The notes under the pieces were generated by a model. That model was not told the DNA's origin, made no database searches, and worked only from the letters and a program-made list of their open reading frames with translations. Positions 2,119-16,657 of a stretch of DNA of 20,217 nt are shown piece by piece. The DNA comes from a virus, in IMG/VR virus record IMGVR_UViG_3300021962_000835, positions 1 through 20,217 of that record; one strand, given 5' to 3'. The position numbers were made by a program, and so were the translations under genes. Each line of letters begins with the position of its first letter. Positions within the stretch are counted from its first letter, which is position 1.

Positions 2119-3297
2119 ATGGAACTACAAACTAGAAAAGTATCTGATCTTATACCCTACATTAATAATAGTAGGACACATTCTGAAGAACAAATAAATC
2201 AAATTATAAGTTCTATTAAAGAATTTGGATTTACCAATCCTATTTTACTTGAAGAAGAAAACGGAATCATAGCTGGTCATGGTAGGCTCATGGCAGTTAA
2301 AAAAATGGGTTGGACAGAAGTTCCTTGTGTAACCATAAAAGGATTAACTAAAACACAAATAAAAGCACTTAATATTGCAGATAATCAAATAGCTTTAAAT
2401 GCTGGTTGGGATTTGGACAAACTTAAATTAGAAATTAAAGGATTAGATGAGGATAATTTTAATTTAGACATATTAGGGTTTAATAAGAATCAAATAGATG
2501 ATTTTTTATTTGAAGAAAAACAAGGTTTAACAGATGATGATGCAACACCTGAAATAGATGAATCAAAAGTTAAATCTAAGTTGGGAGATATATTTATTTT
2601 AGGAGATCATAGACTAATGTGTGGAGATAGCACAAAAATAGATGATACTGATAAATTAATTAATAAACAATCAATGGATTTAGTATTTACTGATCCACCT
2701 TATGGAATAAATGAAAAAGGAGATAGATCAAATAGAGGTGGTTTAACACAAGGAAATAAATTAAAAGATTTTAAAGATGATACTATTCAATATGCTGTAG
2801 ATGCCTATAATATTTGTGAAGGAGTTTACAAAATACCTAGACAAGTATGGTGGGGTGCAAATTATTATTGCCATCATTTACCTTTATCTAATAATTGGTT
2901 TGTTTGGGATAAAAGAGTAGAAGAAAAACAAAAAGACACTCAATCTGATTGTGAATTAGCATGGGTTAAATCTAAATGGTCATCTATTAGAATATTTAGA
3001 CATCTATGGAAAGGCATGATGAAAGATTCAGAAAAAGGTCAAAGAAGAGTACACCCAACTCAAAAACCAATAGCATTAGCAGAGTGGAGTTTTGATTATT
3101 TTAAAGATTTTACTAATGTTTTAGATTTATTTGGTGGATCAGGTTCAACATTAATAGCTTGTGAGAAAAGAAACAAAAAATGTTTTATGATGGAATTTGA
3201 ACCATTATATTGTGATACCATAATACAAAGATGGCAAAACTTTACAGGAAAAGAAGCAATACATGAACAAACAGGAAAACGATACAACGAACTCTAA
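2119..3297 (+). CDS. ParB-domain DNA methyltransferase fusion
   Basis: A 392 aa two-domain enzyme. Residues 1-110 form a ParB/Srx-like nuclease-fold domain: DLIPYINNSRTHSEEQI, IIAGHGRLMAVKKMGW and the hallmark NIADNQIALNAGWD (85-98). The rest is a SAM-dependent amino-methyltransferase (N6-adenine or N4-cytosine) with catalytic motif IV TDPPYG at 191-196 and SAM-binding motif I FGGSGST at 338-344. Motif IV before motif I places it in the beta class. The region between them should hold the target-recognition domain. Length is normal for phage ParB-MTases. No restriction endonuclease is nearby, so it is an orphan enzyme. It overlaps the terminase-small-like gene by 35 bases, suggesting co-expression with packaging. 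The specific base and site methylated cannot be read from sequence. Confidence 0.9.
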   Translation: MELQTRKVSDLIPYINNSRTHSEEQINQIISSIKEFGFTNPILLEEENGIIAGHGRLMAVKKMGWTEVPCVTIKGLTKTQIKALNIADNQIALNAGWDLDKLKLEIKGLDEDNFNLDILGFNKNQIDDFLFEEKQGLTDDDATPEIDESKVKSKLGDIFILGDHRLMCGDSTKIDDTDKLINKQSMDLVFTDPPYGINEKGDRSNRGGLTQGNKLKDFKDDTIQYAVDAYNICEGVYKIPRQVWWGANYYCHHLPLSNNWFVWDKRVEEKQKDTQSDCELAWVKSKWSSIRIFRHLWKGMMKDSEKGQRRVHPTQKPIALAEWSFDYFKDFTNVLDLFGGSGSTLIACEKRNKKCFMMEFEPLYCDTIIQRWQNFTGKEAIHEQTGKRYNEL

Positions 3298-3601
3298 AGC
3301 TGGTCGTCCCAAAAAGGAACTAGACTCAGAACAAGTGTATAAATTAGCACTAATGCACTGCTCTATGCAAGAGATGGCAGATTTCTTTAAGGTAGATGTT
3401 AAGACATTAAGAACTAATTATTCCCAAGAAATAATAAAAGGAAAAGCAGAGGGTAAAATTAGATTAAGGAAGAAACAATTTGAAGTAGCTGAGAAGGGTA
3501 ATGTCAGTATGCTTATTTGGCTCGGAAAACAAGTATTAGGTCAATCAGATGGACAAACAGGAGATGATTTTGAGGCTTTACCTTTAACAGATATTCTATA
3601 A
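3263..3601 (+). CDS. Small terminase subunit-like HTH protein
   Basis: A 112 aa protein beginning with a KAGRPKKELD lead, then a helix-turn-helix (residues about 25-55: VYKLALMHCSMQEMADFFKV, DVKTLRTNY) and a C-terminal part, LRKKQFEVAEKGNVSMLIWL GKQ-LGQ. The latter ('RR-QF--A-KGN--MLIWLGKQ-LGQ-D') is characteristic of small terminase-like proteins in many phages. It would bind the packaging site on phage DNA and recruit the large subunit. The large subunit is not adjacent, as is usual, but about 2.2 kb downstream at 5769, after an insert of other genes. Its start lies within the methyltransferase gene, with AGGAAAAG upstream. Confidence 0.75.
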   Translation: MNKQENDTTNSKAGRPKKELDSEQVYKLALMHCSMQEMADFFKVDVKTLRTNYSQEIIKGKAEGKIRLRKKQFEVAEKGNVSMLIWLGKQVLGQSDGQTGDDFEALPLTDIL

Positions 3602-3610
3602 ATAGAATCT

Positions 3611-3889
3611 ATGGCTAAATACAAAGGTAGAGAAGTTTCATTAAATAAACCATTTAGAACTCCATCAGCTTCTAAAAAGTTTGGAGTGTATGTTAAAGAC
3701 AATAGATCAAACAAAATTAAGATAGTTAGATTTGGTGCTAAAGGCATGAGCATCAAGAAAAATATTCCAGCAAGACAGAAATCTTTTATGGCAAGGTTTA
3801 AACCTATACTAGCGAAAGTAAAAGGACAAAAAAGTTTATCTCCAGCTTATTGGGCAGTTAAATCTTGGCGAAAAGGTTTCAAAGTATGA
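3611..3889 (+). CDS. Small basic marine-phage protein of unknown function
   Basis: A 92 aa basic protein starting MAKYKGREVSLNKPFRTPSA and continuing KKFGVYVKD, VRFGAKGMSIKKN, PARQKSFMARF and AYWAVKSWRKG. This series (KGREV-LNKPFRTP, KKF-VYVKD, VRFG---M-I, PAR-KSF-ARF, YW--K-W) recalls a small protein family common in marine phages, where the late part usually carries cysteines in an 'HxC...YWSCKxW' context. Here those cysteines are replaced (ARFKPIL and YWAVKSW), so a metal-binding role seems lost. Function is unknown. It lies between the two terminase genes and overlaps the next gene as ATGA (3886-3889). Family name recalled only loosely (possibly DUF5872). Confidence 0.6.
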   Translation: MAKYKGREVSLNKPFRTPSASKKFGVYVKDNRSNKIKIVRFGAKGMSIKKNIPARQKSFMARFKPILAKVKGQKSLSPAYWAVKSWRKGFKV

Positions 3890-4161
3890 TCAAGTATTTT
3901 TTATTCATGCACATAATGGTATCCGATCCAACTGCACATATTCCTAAGGTCTATGACTTTTGGTTTGACGATTATGAATTAAGATATTTTAAGACAGAAA
4001 AAGATTGTAAAAATAAAGGTAATGAAATAATGACATGGGCTAGGCAATCTATGGAAGATAAAAATTTAACTGTTTTAGACACTTGGTTTGAGTGTGTTGA
4101 GGTACAAAAGAATGAAAAAGCATCATTTAATAATCAACCTAGAGGATATAAAAAAATATGA
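3886..4161 (+). CDS. Hypothetical protein
   Basis: A 91 aa protein of unknown function. I use the ATG at 3886, which overlaps the previous stop as ATGA, rather than an in-frame TTG seven codons earlier; AAAAGG lies about ten bases upstream. The N-terminus is short and hydrophobic (MIKYFLFMHIMV), which might be a weak signal or simply a beta strand. The body has an aromatic-rich stretch (YDFWFDDYELRYF) and two later cysteines at most. The C-terminal half, ending RGYKKI, overlaps the next gene by 50 bases. No family is recognised. Confidence 0.5.
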   Translation: MIKYFLFMHIMVSDPTAHIPKVYDFWFDDYELRYFKTEKDCKNKGNEIMTWARQSMEDKNLTVLDTWFECVEVQKNEKASFNNQPRGYKKI

Positions 4162-4486
4162 CATTAATTTTAGACAAGAAATCATTAACAAAGCTTTCTT
4201 CTTTCAAGCACAAACTATATTGTTGTATGGACATACTTTTAAAAACAGCAAAGAAATTGAAAAGCAAACCTTTACTAGCAACTACGATTTCCATTATGAT
4301 CTTGTTGTTGTTAATAATGTTTTAGAGCATTTACCTTTAGAATATTTGAGTATAGTAATTAAAGATATATTTAGTTACTCAAGTAAGCATGTAATGGTTA
4401 TATTAAACTTTAAATCAGATTTGTTTAAACCAATAATTAAACTACTAAGCAAATACCCTAGACATAGTTTCTATTTTAATTCCTAA
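4112..4486 (+). CDS. Short class I methyltransferase-like protein, degenerate SAM loop
   Basis: A 124 aa protein from the ATG at 4112 (GAGG nine bases upstream; an in-frame TTG at 4088 is less likely). Residues 62-81 read YDLVVVNNVLEHLPLEYLSI, followed by VIKDIFSYSSKHVMVILNF. This is the motif IV/post-IV region of SAM-dependent methyltransferases, where 'YDLV--NNVLEHLP' is typical. The expected glycine-rich motif I (like LDYGCGKG) is here ILLYGHTFK (36-44), which lacks the usual acidic and glycine residues. It is shorter than usual family members and may not bind SAM normally. Another small frame starts by ATGA at 4158, but only this frame carries the methyltransferase-like pattern. The stop shares one base with the next start. 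Confidence 0.55.
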   Translation: MKKHHLIINLEDIKKYDINFRQEIINKAFFFQAQTILLYGHTFKNSKEIEKQTFTSNYDFHYDLVVVNNVLEHLPLEYLSIVIKDIFSYSSKHVMVILNFKSDLFKPIIKLLSKYPRHSFYFNS

Positions 4487-5034
4487 TGTTTGATCCATTT
4501 AATTACATGAAGGATAAGGATTTGCTTGTCATAGGAAATGCAGTTGTTGATCAAGAACCTGATTACTCAAAGTATAATTGCATTGTAAGAATGAATCTTG
4601 GAATTAAAACTAAACCTTGTGATGTATGGATAGACAACTTAGTTAATAAAGCACATGAGTTCTTAGGAGATATACCTGAGTTTAAAAACATTATTAGACT
4701 CAATGCAGAAAAGGACGGCAAAAGAATGGAACGATTACCTAAAGAACTTAAACCTTATGCTTGGTTATGGAACTCTAATGAATATAATTTTATGTGTAGA
4801 GAGTTAGATTATTTAAGACCTACTACTGGATTGATAAGCATCTATTGGATACTAAATAATATTAAGTTTAAATCTATGACCATAACTGGTTATGACTTCT
4901 TTAAAACACCAAATAGATATACAATGGAAACTCATGCAACATCAGGAACATATGTGTACCCATCACATGATATTAGAAAAGATGAGTATTGGATTATGAA
5001 ATGGGCAGAGCAAGGAAAGTATGCAATTATTTAA
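4486..5034 (+). CDS. GT29 sialyltransferase-like glycosyltransferase
   Basis: A 182 aa protein with the layout of family GT29 (sialyltransferases). An N-terminal Rossmann-like segment, DLLVIGNAVVD (12-22) then CIVRMNLGIKTKPCDVWIDN (32-51), corresponds to sialyl motif L (VVGN...VIRMN...DV). RPTTGLISIYWIL (111-123) and MTITGYDFF (131-139) correspond to sialyl motif S (PSTG...V..YGF). H161 with E167 (SHDIRKDE) fits the motif-VS histidine and glutamate. It is short and has no membrane anchor, so it is probably soluble. Known GT29 enzymes transfer sialic acid from CMP-sialic acid; donor and acceptor here are unknown. It is joined by one base to the previous gene and overlaps the following methyltransferase by 14 bases, so they are co-expressed between the two terminase genes. 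Identification is by motif, without a search. Confidence 0.7.
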   Translation: MFDPFNYMKDKDLLVIGNAVVDQEPDYSKYNCIVRMNLGIKTKPCDVWIDNLVNKAHEFLGDIPEFKNIIRLNAEKDGKRMERLPKELKPYAWLWNSNEYNFMCRELDYLRPTTGLISIYWILNNIKFKSMTITGYDFFKTPNRYTMETHATSGTYVYPSHDIRKDEYWIMKWAEQGKYAII

Positions 5035-5803
5035 TGACGATTGTTTGAGGGTATTACCGACAATACCTGATAAGTCTATTGATCTAATTATAACAAGTCC
5101 ACCATATAATTTAGGTTTAAAATATAATACTTACGAAGATTCAAAAAGTGATTACATAGAATGGTTAATAAATATTTTTAATAAATGCTGTAATGTTTTA
5201 AAAGATGATGGTCATTTATTTATTAATTTATCTTCAAGTAAAGAAAATCCATTTACAGCATACAAAATTGCTGAAGGTATAAATTGGAAACTACAAAACA
5301 ATATTATTTGGGCTAAATCAGTTGAAATAGATGGTTATGTTAGGGGTTATAATACACCAACATCAAGTAAAAGATTTTTAAAAAATGGTTGGGAACACTT
5401 ATTTCACTTTACAAAATTTGGTAATACAAAAATAGATTTAAAATCTTCAGGTGTACCTTATAACAACAAATATAATAATGCAGAGAGAATGTTTAAAAAA
5501 ACTGGTAAAAAGTGGACAGCAACGACTAACTGTTGGCACATAACTTATAAAAGTAAAGCCACTAAAGAAATAACAAAACAAATTGCAGGGGATAAAAAAC
5601 ACCCAGCTATATTTCCTGAGAATTTAGTAGAAAAATGTTTAAAGGTTTCTGGTATAAAAAAGGGTAAAATTCTTGATCCTTTTATGGGTACAGGAACAAC
5701 AGGTTTAGTTGCTAAAAAATACAAACTTAATTTTATAGGTATTGAATTAGACAAAGATTATTTTAAACATGCAAAAAATAGGATTGAAAGTGCCGTTATC
5801 TGA
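5021..5803 (+). CDS. Beta-class DNA amino-methyltransferase
   Basis: A 260 aa DNA methyltransferase. Motif IV TSPPYN (residues 25-30) near the N-terminus and SAM-binding motif I DPFMGTGTTG (219-228) near the C-terminus give the beta-class order. The SPPY form is often seen in N4-cytosine enzymes but also in some N6-adenine ones, so the target base is uncertain. IGIELDKDYF (about 239-248) is the acidic motif II region. A target-recognition region lies between. Length is complete for a stand-alone enzyme; no ParB domain and no partner endonuclease are present. It begins inside the GT29-like gene and overlaps the large terminase by 35 bases. This is the second orphan methyltransferase in the packaging region; the two differ in sequence and are not a duplication. 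Confidence 0.88.
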   Translation: MQLFNDDCLRVLPTIPDKSIDLIITSPPYNLGLKYNTYEDSKSDYIEWLINIFNKCCNVLKDDGHLFINLSSSKENPFTAYKIAEGINWKLQNNIIWAKSVEIDGYVRGYNTPTSSKRFLKNGWEHLFHFTKFGNTKIDLKSSGVPYNNKYNNAERMFKKTGKKWTATTNCWHITYKSKATKEITKQIAGDKKHPAIFPENLVEKCLKVSGIKKGKILDPFMGTGTTGLVAKKYKLNFIGIELDKDYFKHAKNRIESAVI

Positions 5804-7019
5804 ACCGCAAAGACAAGTCTTATCTAGCAACAAAAGATTTAGAGTTCTAATTACAGGAAGAAGATTTGGTAAGACTCATCTATGTATGATGGAGTTATTA
5901 CGCAAAGGTAGAGATAATCCTAATGGTAAAATCTTTTATGTAAGTCCTACTTACCGAATGTCTAAAGAGATCATGTGGAAGAATCTCAAGAAGGTAGTTA
6001 AGAAATTAAGATGGGATAAATACATTAACGAAACTGAACTAACTATTGTACTTAAAAACAACTGTCAGATTAGCTTAAAAGGTGCAGATAAAAGTCCTGA
6101 TAATTTACGAGGTGTAGGTCTTAACTTCCTTGTCTTAGATGAGTTTGCAGATATACCTGAAGAAGCATGGAACGAAGTATTGCGTCCTACTATTTCAGAT
6201 AAGCATGTACAAGGTTCTGTTCTATTTGTGGGTACTCCTAAGGGTGTAGGTAATTGGTCATATGATATGTTTCAAAAAGGAAAGTCAGATGATCCTGAAT
6301 GGCAATCATGGAAGTTCACAACGATAGAAGGGGGTCAAGTAGAAACACATGAGATAGAACAAGCTAAAAAAGATTTAGATGAGAGATCATTTAAACAAGA
6401 ATACTTAGCTAGTTTTGAAACTTATGCTGGTGTTGTTTATTATAACTTTGACAGAGAGTATAATGTTAAACCTTGTAAGTATGATCCTGAAGCAGTCATT
6501 CACTTGGGACTAGATTTTAATATTGATCCCATGTCGGCTTGTTTATTTCATTTAAAGAATAATATTGCTCAATTCTTTGATGAAATTGTTATTTATTCTA
6601 GCAATACTGATGAATTTATTGAAGAATTATTAAGAAGATACCCTAAAAATAAGATTATTGTTTATCCTGATCCAGCTAGTAGGCAAAGAAAAACTTCGGC
6701 GGGGGGTAGAACTGATTTAACTATCTTGCAAAATGCTGGACTTAGTGTTAAATGTAAAAATACTCATGCTTTAGTCCGAGATCGGATCAACTCAGTTAAT
6801 TCAAGATTGAAAAATTTTGATGGTACTAGAAATGTATTAATTGATCCTTCTTGCAAAAACCTTATAAATAGTTTAACGAAACAAATGTATAAAGAAGGTA
6901 CAAATATACCTGAGAAAAATGGATACGATCATATGAGTGATGCACTTGGATACGCATTAGAATATCTGTTCCCTATTTCAAGTAATTTACCACCTTCACA
7001 ACCTAAGAGATTTAGCTAA
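5769..7019 (+). CDS. terL: Terminase large subunit
   Basis: A 416 aa packaging motor. ATPase domain: Walker A TGRRFGKT (29-36), Walker B LVLDEFAD (121-128) with catalytic glutamate E125, and coupling motif VGTPKG (154-159). Nuclease domain (RNase H-like): GLDFNIDP (247-254) with the first acidic residue D249, YPDPAS (about 300) and YDHMSDALGY (386-395) with the C-terminal acidic residues. The enzyme cuts concatemeric phage DNA and pumps it into the prohead through the portal, with ATP hydrolysis. The ATG at 5769 overlaps the methyltransferase by 35 bases; in-frame TTG (5784) or GTG (5790) starts would reduce that overlap and cannot be excluded. The stop shares one base with the portal start. 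Confidence 0.95.
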   Translation: MQKIGLKVPLSEPQRQVLSSNKRFRVLITGRRFGKTHLCMMELLRKGRDNPNGKIFYVSPTYRMSKEIMWKNLKKVVKKLRWDKYINETELTIVLKNNCQISLKGADKSPDNLRGVGLNFLVLDEFADIPEEAWNEVLRPTISDKHVQGSVLFVGTPKGVGNWSYDMFQKGKSDDPEWQSWKFTTIEGGQVETHEIEQAKKDLDERSFKQEYLASFETYAGVVYYNFDREYNVKPCKYDPEAVIHLGLDFNIDPMSACLFHLKNNIAQFFDEIVIYSSNTDEFIEELLRRYPKNKIIVYPDPASRQRKTSAGGRTDLTILQNAGLSVKCKNTHALVRDRINSVNSRLKNFDGTRNVLIDPSCKNLINSLTKQMYKEGTNIPEKNGYDHMSDALGYALEYLFPISSNLPPSQPKRFS

Positions 7020-8416
7020 TGGCATATTCAAGAAAAGAAATTTTACAACAACATGAGCATTACACAGCTTATTCAAATAAATGGCAATATTATATTCGTT
7101 CTTTTTTAGGTGGAGAAGAATATAAAGATGGAAGATATTTACAGGAATATAATTTAGAATTAGAAAACGAATTTAATAAAAGAATAACTTATACTCCTCT
7201 TGATAATCATTGTAGAAATATAGTTCATATCTACGCATCATTTTTATTTAGAAATAAACCAACAAGACAATTTGGAAGTTTAGAAGATGATCAAACTATT
7301 CCAATGTTTTTAGATGACGCAGATTTAGAAGGTAGAGCATACACAGCTTTGTTAAGAGAAATGCAAACTTATGCTTCTGTATATGGTCATTGTTGGGCAA
7401 TATTAGATAAACCAAATTCAAATGCACAAACAAGAGCAGAAGAACTTAATCAAGAAATAAGACCTTATCTAAATATATTCACACCTGAAAATGTTATTGA
7501 TTGGTCATATTCAAGAGCAACATCAGGCAAATACTATTTAGATTATTTAAAAGTTAGAGAATATACTGATAGTAGAAAAGAAATTTATAGATTGTGGTTT
7601 AATGATAAAATTGATGTAGTTGAATTATCTAAAATTGGTGCAAGTGATCCTGTATTAATTGAATCTCAAGAAAATGTTTTAGGACAAATACCAGCAGTTA
7701 TTTTATACAATCAAAGAAGTCATATGAGAGGAATTGGTGTATCTGATTTAACTGATATAGCTGATTTACAAAAAGCAATTTACAATGAACATTCTGAGAT
7801 TGAACAATTAATTAGATTATCTAACCACCCTAGCTTAGTGAAAACAAGAGATGTTGATGCTTCTGCTGGTGCTGGTGCAATTATAGAAATGCCTGATAAT
7901 ATGGATACTAATTTAAAACCATATTTATTACAGCCAAGCGGAACTAATATTGATTCAATTTTAAAAACAATTGATATGAAAGTAGATGCTATCAATAGAC
8001 TATCTCATGTAGGTGCAGTTAGAAGTACATCAGAAACAGTTGCGTCAGGAATAGCTTTAAGAACTGAGTTTCAATTATTAAATGCTAGACTTGCAGAAAA
8101 AGCAAATTTACTTCAATTGTTTGAAGAACAAATTTGGAGATTATATGCATTGTGGCAAGATAATGTTTTTGATGGAGAAATTATGTATCCTGAATCTTTT
8201 GATTTAAGAGATTGGGCAACTGACTTAGAATTACTACAACAAGCTAAAGCATCTAATATTAAATCTGATACTTTTGTTAAAGAACTTGATAAACAAATTG
8301 CTAGAACCGTTATTGAAGATGATGAAGTATTGGCAGTAATAGATGATGAAATAAATCAAACAACAACAAGGTTAGGCGAGTTTCCAATTAGACCAATTGA
8401 AACACCTACGATTTAA
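7019..8416 (+). CDS. Portal protein
   Basis: A 465 aa portal, forming the dodecameric channel at one capsid vertex through which DNA enters and leaves and to which TerL docks. Support comes from position directly after TerL and before a minor head protein, from length, and from features such as an N-terminal HYTAYSNKWQYYIRSFLGG, the segment DNHCRNIVHIYASFLFRNKP, the strand YGHCWAILDKP, and a long helical part (DLTDIADLQKAIYNEHSEIE) followed by acidic C-terminal helices. The type resembles SPP1 gp6-like/DUF4055-like portals. It starts with TAATG overlap with terL (7017-7021). Confidence 0.88.
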   Translation: MAYSRKEILQQHEHYTAYSNKWQYYIRSFLGGEEYKDGRYLQEYNLELENEFNKRITYTPLDNHCRNIVHIYASFLFRNKPTRQFGSLEDDQTIPMFLDDADLEGRAYTALLREMQTYASVYGHCWAILDKPNSNAQTRAEELNQEIRPYLNIFTPENVIDWSYSRATSGKYYLDYLKVREYTDSRKEIYRLWFNDKIDVVELSKIGASDPVLIESQENVLGQIPAVILYNQRSHMRGIGVSDLTDIADLQKAIYNEHSEIEQLIRLSNHPSLVKTRDVDASAGAGAIIEMPDNMDTNLKPYLLQPSGTNIDSILKTIDMKVDAINRLSHVGAVRSTSETVASGIALRTEFQLLNARLAEKANLLQLFEEQIWRLYALWQDNVFDGEIMYPESFDLRDWATDLELLQQAKASNIKSDTFVKELDKQIARTVIEDDEVLAVIDDEINQTTTRLGEFPIRPIETPTI

Positions 8417-15678: not shown

Positions 15679-16232
15679 TGACAAGAACATTATCTACTTC
15701 ATTAAAAAATGAATTAGCTACAAATAAATTAAACCCAATAGATTTAGTTTATATTGGTGTAGAAAATGGTTATTATTTTACAGATCATTTTAAAGATATA
15801 ACTTTTAATGCTAATACTTATCAATCATCATCATTATATCTTGGTGCTTCAGATGTTAATGAATCTTCTGAAGTTTCTGTAAGCAATTTAGTAGTTAAAT
15901 TTACTGGTGCTAATCAAACTATTATAAGTTTGTTTTTAAATAATGAATACATGGAAAAACCAGCGCATGTATATAGAGGTTTTTTAGATGACAATTCAAC
16001 TTTAATTACTGATCCTTTTTTATTATTTGAGGGAAGAATAGAAAACTTATCAATAGAAGAAGATGAAACATCATCATTAGTTAATATATCTATTGCATCT
16101 CATTGGGCTGACTTTGATAAAATTAAAGGAAGAAAAACAAATACAAACTCACAGAAAATACATTTTCCAAATGATAAAGGATTTGATTATGCTTCTCAAA
16201 CTTCAAAGGATATAAAATGGGGCAGAGCATAA
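15678..16232 (+). CDS. Tail hub/minor tail protein (L or DUF2163-like)
   Basis: A 184 aa protein in the position of lambda L or GTA gp13-like hub components. It contains LVYIGVENGYYFTDHFKDIT, FNANTYQSSSLYLGASDVNE, 'SEVSVSNLVVKFTGANQTII' and a VYRGFLDDNSTLITDPFLLF region followed by EGRIENLSIEEDETSS. These correspond to the usual order of hub beta-barrel strands and a 'FEGRI' strand. The C-terminus lacks obvious cysteines for an Fe-S cluster as in lambda L, which makes the DUF2163/DUF1833 resemblance the safer description. The end overlaps the acyltransferase-like gene by 16 bases. Confidence 0.62.
   Translation: MTRTLSTSLKNELATNKLNPIDLVYIGVENGYYFTDHFKDITFNANTYQSSSLYLGASDVNESSEVSVSNLVVKFTGANQTIISLFLNNEYMEKPAHVYRGFLDDNSTLITDPFLLFEGRIENLSIEEDETSSLVNISIASHWADFDKIKGRKTNTNSQKIHFPNDKGFDYASQTSKDIKWGRA
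16205..16210 (+). promoter_or_regulatory. Shine-Dalgarno of the HlyC-like gene
   Basis: AAAGGA six bases before the ATG at 16217, inside the end of the preceding tail gene. It supports the overlapping start of the acyltransferase-like gene. Confidence 0.5.
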
Positions 16233-16657
16233 ATGATGTATATAAAATTGTGGCTTTGTATAGGCATTTTCCTAAGTATGATCACATTAAGTATGAAGAT
16301 ATTATTAAATCAATACTGCCATCAATTAATCTTGGTCAATATCAAATACATAAAGATAAAAACGAAATTATAGGTTTTACTAACTGGGCTTTTATTAATG
16401 ATTTAGTAGAGCATAGATTTCTTAAAACAGGCAAATTAAAATCAAATGAATGGAGATGTGGAAATAATTTATGGCACATTGAAACTATTGCCAAAAGAAA
16501 CTTGAAAGAAATCATGTCTTGGACTAAACAACATTTTACATCTTTGTATGGCTATGAAAAACCAATTAAATGGATAAGAATAAAAGATAACAAAATAGTC
16601 AAACATCAAGTAAGATGTACCAAACCAAGTTGGAATAATGGATTAATTTATGGGTAG
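16217..16657 (+). CDS. HlyC/RtxC-like toxin-activating lysine-acyltransferase
   Basis: A 146 aa protein with the layout of the HlyC family, which in RTX-toxin operons transfers a fatty acyl group from acyl-carrier protein to lysines of the toxin. Visible features: ALYRHFPKY with H17 where HlyC has its catalytic His23 (SPLHRNW); a strand IIGFTNWAFINDLVEHRFL (51-69), matching the 'VAYCSWA-LS-E-E--YL' region; and EWRCGNNLWHIETIA (78-92), matching 'DWTSGDRKWFIDWIAP'. The catalytic Asp92 position is Glu here (E89), with almost the same spacing from the histidine (72 versus 69 residues). It lies between the tail hub and J-like genes, overlapping both, where lambda has K and I. There is no RTX repeat protein nearby. 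Acylation of a tail-tip protein is the natural hypothesis; activity with Glu is uncertain. Confidence 0.78.
   Translation: MGQSINDVYKIVALYRHFPKYDHIKYEDIIKSILPSINLGQYQIHKDKNEIIGFTNWAFINDLVEHRFLKTGKLKSNEWRCGNNLWHIETIAKRNLKEIMSWTKQHFTSLYGYEKPIKWIRIKDNKIVKHQVRCTKPSWNNGLIYG

Follow-up and report, generated by a model that had tools for sequence, protein, structure and literature searches.

Glycosyltransferases of family GT29 are best known for sialylating animal glycoproteins; they act on sugars by inverting transfer from CMP-sialic acid, their fold is a variant of GT-A, and the residues of their sialylmotifs L, S and VS form the CMP site and supply the catalytic base. Glucosylation of phage DNA is also a known phenomenon, and the known DNA glucosyltransferases possess, to our knowledge, a fold other than that of GT29. 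Bacterial members of GT29 are few, and those described originate mostly from alphaproteobacteria (PMC5811610, the text of which does not contain the word "virus"). No GT29 member has been described in a phage in the literature searched, nor was any description of a phage or pelagiphage sialyltransferase found there, this being a limited set of papers whose silence is no proof of absence. Genes for glycosyltransferases, methyltransferases and epimerases lie in the hypervariable regions of SAR11 genomes (PMC6811365), and a role in modifying LPS has been attributed to the glycosyltransferases of pelagiphages (PMC9599517).

Herein, a virus record of 20,217 bases is analyzed, the whole of which is termed the window. 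One of its genes encodes a protein of the GT29 fold, minimal in size and divergent in sequence, that belongs to a phage glycan cassette, an assignment that is well supported as far as the fold is concerned; catalysis, donor and acceptor are what we infer beyond it. The reading put forward, to which we give about an even chance, is that of a minimal CMP-ulosonate transferase working within this cassette and most likely decorating virion proteins.

Fold and sialylmotifs of the phage protein

The gene begins with ATG, which shares one base with the preceding stop (TAATG, 4484..4488), and terminates with TAA. Its 3' end overlaps a DNA methyltransferase gene that itself overlaps terL (Table 1). No membrane segment was found in the protein, which points to an enzyme without a membrane anchor. 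The preliminary description had placed the gene between the terminase genes, and this holds with certainty for the large subunit on the downstream side, the upstream HTH protein being a weak match to small terminases.

Table 1. Features of the GT29 locus in the window
Feature	Position	Strand	Evidence and remarks
HTH protein, probable small terminase	3263..3601	+	phrog_309, E 2.7e-5; 37% identical to the putative DNA-binding protein of HTVC202P
phrog_7595 protein, left border of the variable slot ending at terL	3611..3889	+	E 1.1e-19
Shortened methyltransferase-like protein, directly upstream of GT29	4109..4486	+	Sub-threshold Methyltransf_23, E 0.005
Minimal GT29-fold glycosyltransferase, 182 aa	4486..5034	+	Homologues match PF00777; AlphaFold2 model from alignment A3 resembles GT29 structures
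Motif L region, residues 11-37, KDLLVIGN...IVRMN	4516..4596	+	G17, N18, R35 and N37 invariant in 33 homologues
Motif S region, residues 111-139, RPTTGL...MTITGYDFF	4816..4902	+	P112-T113-T114-G115 and D137-F138-F139 invariant in A3
Putative motif III, residues 144-148, RYTME	4915..4929	+	T146, M147 and E148 invariant; assigned by eye
Motif VS, residues 161-166, HDIRKD = Hx4[E/D]	4966..4983	+	H161 invariant in 33 homologues
N4/N6 DNA methyltransferase (PF01555), accessory neighbour	5021..5803	+	E 8.5e-46
Terminase large subunit	5769..7019	+	Terminase_6N, E 2e-13; 53-54% identical to HTVC202P and HTVC026P, 54% to HTVC111P
Portal protein	7019..8416	+	57-59% identical to the HTVC026P and HTVC202P portal

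Searches of Pfam, PHROG and PDB sequences with the window protein alone returned nothing useful, the protein lying below the Pfam cut-off, which counts against the reading put forward. An alignment of 33 diverse homologues (47-98% identity), designated as A3, was more informative: seventeen of its members matched PF00777 (Glyco_transf_29) at E values up to 10, the best being 1.4e-6, and the curated Pfam cut-off for this family was passed by the homologues L042, L074 and L104. The PF00777 matches inspected start at motif S and reach the last or nearly last position of the profile, where motif VS lies. Profile and sequence searches of the PDB with A3, L104 and L074 gave noise only.

Template-free AlphaFold2 prediction on A3 produced a model (pLDDT 75, pTM 0.76) whose six best PDB fold matches all belong to GT29, represented by ST6GALNAC2, ST8SiaIII and ST3Gal1, at a probability of 1.00 and E values of 7e-4 to 7e-3; the seventh match falls to E 0.08 and a probability of 0.2. 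The GT29 match is partial, with TM scores of 0.55-0.60 by query length and rmsd values of 5.5-8.5. A first model, built from 12 close homologues, was poor and without a fold match, and was then replaced by that from the 33-sequence alignment, which indicates that the GT29 result depends on the deeper alignment. The GT29-type fold proposed in the preliminary description turned out to be right, as judged from the PF00777 matches of the homologues and the fold matches of the model. Two outcomes named there as speaking against it, namely the lack of a GT29 fold match and the loss of the motif residues, were looked for, and neither came true.

The invariant residues of A3 fall in the sialylmotifs and are kept across marine and freshwater phages. 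Motif L of the window protein reads LLVIGN-x13-IVRMN, and the motif III candidate, which was absent from the earlier list of motifs, stands where this motif is expected and differs from the canonical HY[Y/W/F]E. Position 166 of motif VS is D in the marine clade, including the window protein, and E in the freshwater relatives (HDVKLE, HDVELE) and in the L118 group (HDMEKE); the D that marine members have in place of E as the partner of H161 counts against the transferase reading. Between relatives, dN/dS values of 0.06-0.22 disclose purifying selection on the GT29 gene, in which synonymous change so strongly exceeds replacement change that the protein is evidently in use. Combined with motif residues that are invariant or nearly so in the 33 homologues, this selection implies that the motif pattern is not due to chance, and the recognition of motifs L, S and a His/Glu-type VS within 182 residues was confirmed. 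One relative, otherwise conserved, carries an in-frame stop at codon 45 of its GT29 gene (L008:1859-2404), which represents either a pseudogene or a sequencing error.

Relatives, gene neighbourhood and probable host

Iterated searches of IMG/VR yielded 104 non-redundant loci with relatives of the window GT29, which comprise a marine clade of 70-98% identity, the L118-L126 group at about 53% and a large freshwater group at about 50%. A tblastn search of 50,697 phage records gave no convincing match, divergent members being included as queries. The window is colinear with two Pelagibacter phages, HTVC202P and HTVC026P; the shared stretch takes in the probable small terminase, the phrog_7595 protein (67-68% identical in both), TerL, portal, scaffold, capsid and several tail proteins. 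This colinearity with cultured pelagiphages makes a SAR11 host likely, though not proven, for the window phage. Both cultured phages harbor unrelated genes between the phrog_7595 protein and terL, which marks this slot as a variable site.

A cassette gene lies directly upstream of GT29, with its stop at most 60 bases from the GT29 start, in all 92 relatives with upstream sequence. This neighbour is a protein of about 300 residues with ParB-like and methyltransferase-like parts (assigned by eye) in 45 of them, a small methyltransferase like phrog_24759 in 41 and a GT8-like protein in five; the shortened methyltransferase-like protein takes this place only in the window. The proteins of about 300 residues (e.g. 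L095:3094-4008 and L038:2288-3265) gave no Pfam match. Many freshwater relatives contain two GT8-like genes upstream of GT29, with Pfam matches to GT8. Small SAM-methyltransferases and GT8-like glycosyltransferases are the recurrent partners of GT29. On the other side, 88 of 91 relatives have terL no more than 2.5 kb downstream, and a DNA methyltransferase stands between GT29 and terL in only ten. The overlap of GT29 with a DNA methyltransferase gene is real in the window, but this gene is an optional neighbour in the family at large.

The window differs from its relative L007 in lacking exactly one small methyltransferase gene (L007 5534-6001, 155 aa, phrog_24759-like), which is flanked in L007 by TAATG on both sides, the window retaining the single TAATG mentioned above. 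That a single complete gene is cleanly missing between two such junctions suggests that places where start and stop codons overlap may be sites at which genes of the cassette are exchanged. The shortened protein left in the window shares a 43-residue local similarity with the intact partner methyltransferase, and a clear SAM-binding motif I is not present in it; the loss of the intact partner from the window counts against the cassette reading. In L010-L013, where the contig is long enough, the methyltransferase-GT29 pair resides elsewhere in the genome, away from terL, a location that counts against the reading put forward; the two genes accordingly seem to move together as one unit.

Several further genes deserve mention. 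Upstream in the window, 2119-3297 (+) encodes a protein with a ParB-like N-terminus and an N6/N4 DNA methyltransferase part that is replaced or absent in L007, and the small-terminase candidate of L007 also differs from that of the window. Near the methyltransferase-GT29 pair of L013, in the tail-protein region, 2OG-Fe(II) oxygenase genes are found (L013:2181-4671), for which hydroxylation before glycosylation is conceivable. Among the tail genes of the window, 16217-16657 (+) encodes a protein with a clear match to HlyC-type acyltransferases (PF02794, E 5.1e-19; phrog_20210), odd for a small phage and perhaps another modifier of virion proteins.

Parts of the cassette recur in other phages. 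Relatives of the partner methyltransferase occur in DSL-LC06, CRP-9, Tetraselmis virus S20, Caulobacter phage C1 and others; they adjoin glycosyltransferases in DSL-LC06, S20, C1 and DLP_6, and lie beside coat, capsid or head-tail genes in CRP-9, MW202512 and S20. The GT8-like partner, a member of Pfam GT8, has homologues in DLP_6, MW202512 and Caulobacter phage C1, the DLP_6 protein being 35% identical to a freshwater GT8-like protein. DSL-LC06 (L021, 1732-9017), a relative by its TerL, contains a larger glycan set, annotated as heptosyltransferase-like, FkbM-like, two glycosyltransferases, KpsC-like and GT42-like.

Donor, acceptor and rival readings

A CMP-sugar synthetase was sought in phage records and not found in those tested, which would leave the host as the source of the donor. 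In the genomes of the probable hosts, for which a search for CMP-sialic acid or CMP-Kdo pathways had been recommended at the outset, the enzyme families concerned are present: the PF02348 family, which includes Kdo and sialate cytidylyltransferases, is present in 97 of 98 SAR11-order genomes, and the NeuB family in 71 of the 98. One SAR11 genome, L251 (G175), carries neuB, the cytidylyltransferase gene neuA and a 225-aa GT29 side by side, the sole GT29 among 197 genomes, and this adjacency ties a bacterial GT29 to a CMP-nonulosonate. By eye, 2OG-Fe(II)-type genes lie alongside at that locus. When the A3 profile was run against 147 SAR11-order genomes, a set that had no positive control, no match appeared. 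Sialic acid, another nonulosonic acid and Kdo appear equally possible as the donor sugar of the phage enzyme.

In the mechanism proposed, a soluble, pared-down GT29-fold enzyme would take an ulosonic acid (sialic/nonulosonic or Kdo) from the CMP-activated pool of the host and place it by inversion at the end of a short glycan, with H161 serving as the base. The cassette would be constructed from GT8-like transferases, small SAM-methyltransferases and the GT29 enzyme in the small-terminase-to-terL slot of SAR11-type phages, and its acceptor would most likely be a phage structural protein. Such an acceptor is suggested by the location of the cassette in the packaging/head operon and by the related methyltransferase-glycosyltransferase groups beside virion genes of unrelated phages. 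More generally, the enzyme would cap a sugar chain, most likely one on the phage particle itself or on the surface of the host and not on DNA. The fuller picture, in which marine and freshwater SAR11-type phages build a methylated, ulosonic-acid-capped glycan on virion proteins by means of a packaging-linked cassette and the CMP-sugar pool of the host, is offered tentatively and with less than even confidence. It counts against a virion acceptor that no published account of glycans on the virions of SAR11 phages was found.

The same enzyme might instead act on a host surface glycan such as LPS or capsule, whose remodelling would block further adsorption or the re-adsorption of progeny. This is a possible though rather unlikely course, which gains from the surface-sugar type of operon in which the L251 GT29 sits with neuB-neuA, from the glycan genes of the SAR11 hypervariable regions, from the LPS modification ascribed to pelagiphage glycosyltransferases and from the presumed dependence of the enzyme on host CMP sugars. 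The packaging operon, with the gene directly before terL in the 88 relatives counted above, suggests late expression and speaks against it, as does the fact that neither a flippase nor a membrane anchor was seen with the GT29 gene. Glycosylation of phage DNA, a possibility to which the preliminary description gave weight on account of co-transcription with a DNA methyltransferase, might protect that DNA from restriction jointly with the adjacent methyltransferase, and would fit the overlap of the two genes and the precedent of DNA glucosylation. This emphasis was not supported by the wider comparison, in which the methyltransferase proved to be a minority neighbour and no thymidylate-synthase-type pyrimidine hydroxymethylase (PF00303) was found in the window (a fragment), in five relatives of 32-33 kb or in two pelagiphages, nine of 14 controls being matched. 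The missing hydroxymethylase and the merely occasional neighbour render DNA an unlikely acceptor, and the sugar specificity of GT29 and the different fold of the known DNA glucosyltransferases point the same way, so that we regard this reading as very improbable.

Two further readings concern the enzyme itself. A GT29 fold that transfers a non-ulosonate sugar, or uses as acceptor a lipid or small molecule that has no relation to glycans of the virion or the surface, would agree with a sequence far below ordinary similarity to characterized GT29 enzymes and with a length of 182 residues against about 270-290 in the matched animal chains; the retention of the CMP-site and base residues of motifs L, S and VS makes it quite unlikely. 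Membership in the GT42/CST-I or MptE-like (DUF115) sialyltransferase-like proteins common in phages, instead of GT29, is brought to mind by the alpha-2,3/8-sialyltransferase annotation in DSL-LC06 and by phrog_4603 proteins in S20 and C1, phages that are near in TerL or cassette content, and by a CST-I (PF06002) match in one homologue at E 0.03. Nevertheless, GT29 outscores CST-I in Pfam searches with the homologues, animal GT29 enzymes occupy all of the top places among the fold matches and a Pasteurella sialyltransferase first appears at rank 13, and profile comparison of the phage family with the DSL-LC06 and C1 proteins, P0001 and C1_162 among them, yielded no useful alignment. Given that lone match and no CstI or CstII structure of C. 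jejuni among the 50 best fold matches listed for the model, GT42/CST-I membership was set aside and retains hardly any probability.

Comparison with known systems

The animal GT29 enzymes ST3Gal1, ST6GALNAC2 and ST8SiaIII (PF00777) share with the phage protein motifs L, S and VS in the same order, with a putative motif III between S and VS, and they are its best structural matches, the family profile being matched by its homologues. Their matched chains span about 270-290 aa, in contrast with a phage protein of about 180 aa that lacks a membrane anchor, and identity in the structural alignment amounts to only 11-15%. A GT29 of this size with the motif set would help to define the smallest working core of the fold. 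The bacterial GT29 proteins (PMC5811610), including that of L251, have the GN...R[MF]N and Hx4E motifs and the CMP-ulosonate context in common with it; the L251 protein is longer, and its profile comparison with the phage family gave no useful alignment. GT42/CST-I and the phrog_4603 "alpha-2,3-sialyltransferases" of phages resemble it in the order of the GN, S/TSG and GxDF elements (by eye) and have the methyltransferase of the cassette as a neighbour, but they constitute a separate family with far weaker scores against the window protein.

As to the acceptor preferred here, a virion protein, the nearest parallel is provided by mycobacteriophages with glycosylated virions (Freeman et al. 2023, as cited in PMC11256854), whose phage glycosyltransferases are thought, according to that citing text, to decorate structural proteins. 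Hosts and enzymes are different in that case, and the decoration in a SAR11-type phage is proposed from gene context. Should the cassette indeed modify virions, surface sugars would be present on abundant SAR11-type phages, a matter that would bear on adsorption, grazing and host range.

A counterpart of the whole cassette is found in Stenotrophomonas phage vB_SmaS-DLP_6, whose GT29 (L025:5832-6620) matches PF00777 at E 1.2e-7, above the Pfam cut-off, and can be aligned with A3 over the stretch between motif L and the YTME (putative motif III) region. It differs in its length of 263 aa and in a cluster situated among tRNA genes, outside any packaging operon, a setting that counts against the reading put forward. 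The pairing of methyltransferases with glycosyltransferases recurs across unrelated phages and affords a directly testable system, of which DLP_6, with two phrog_24759-type methyltransferases, a GT8-like protein and a GT29, possesses the same three parts.
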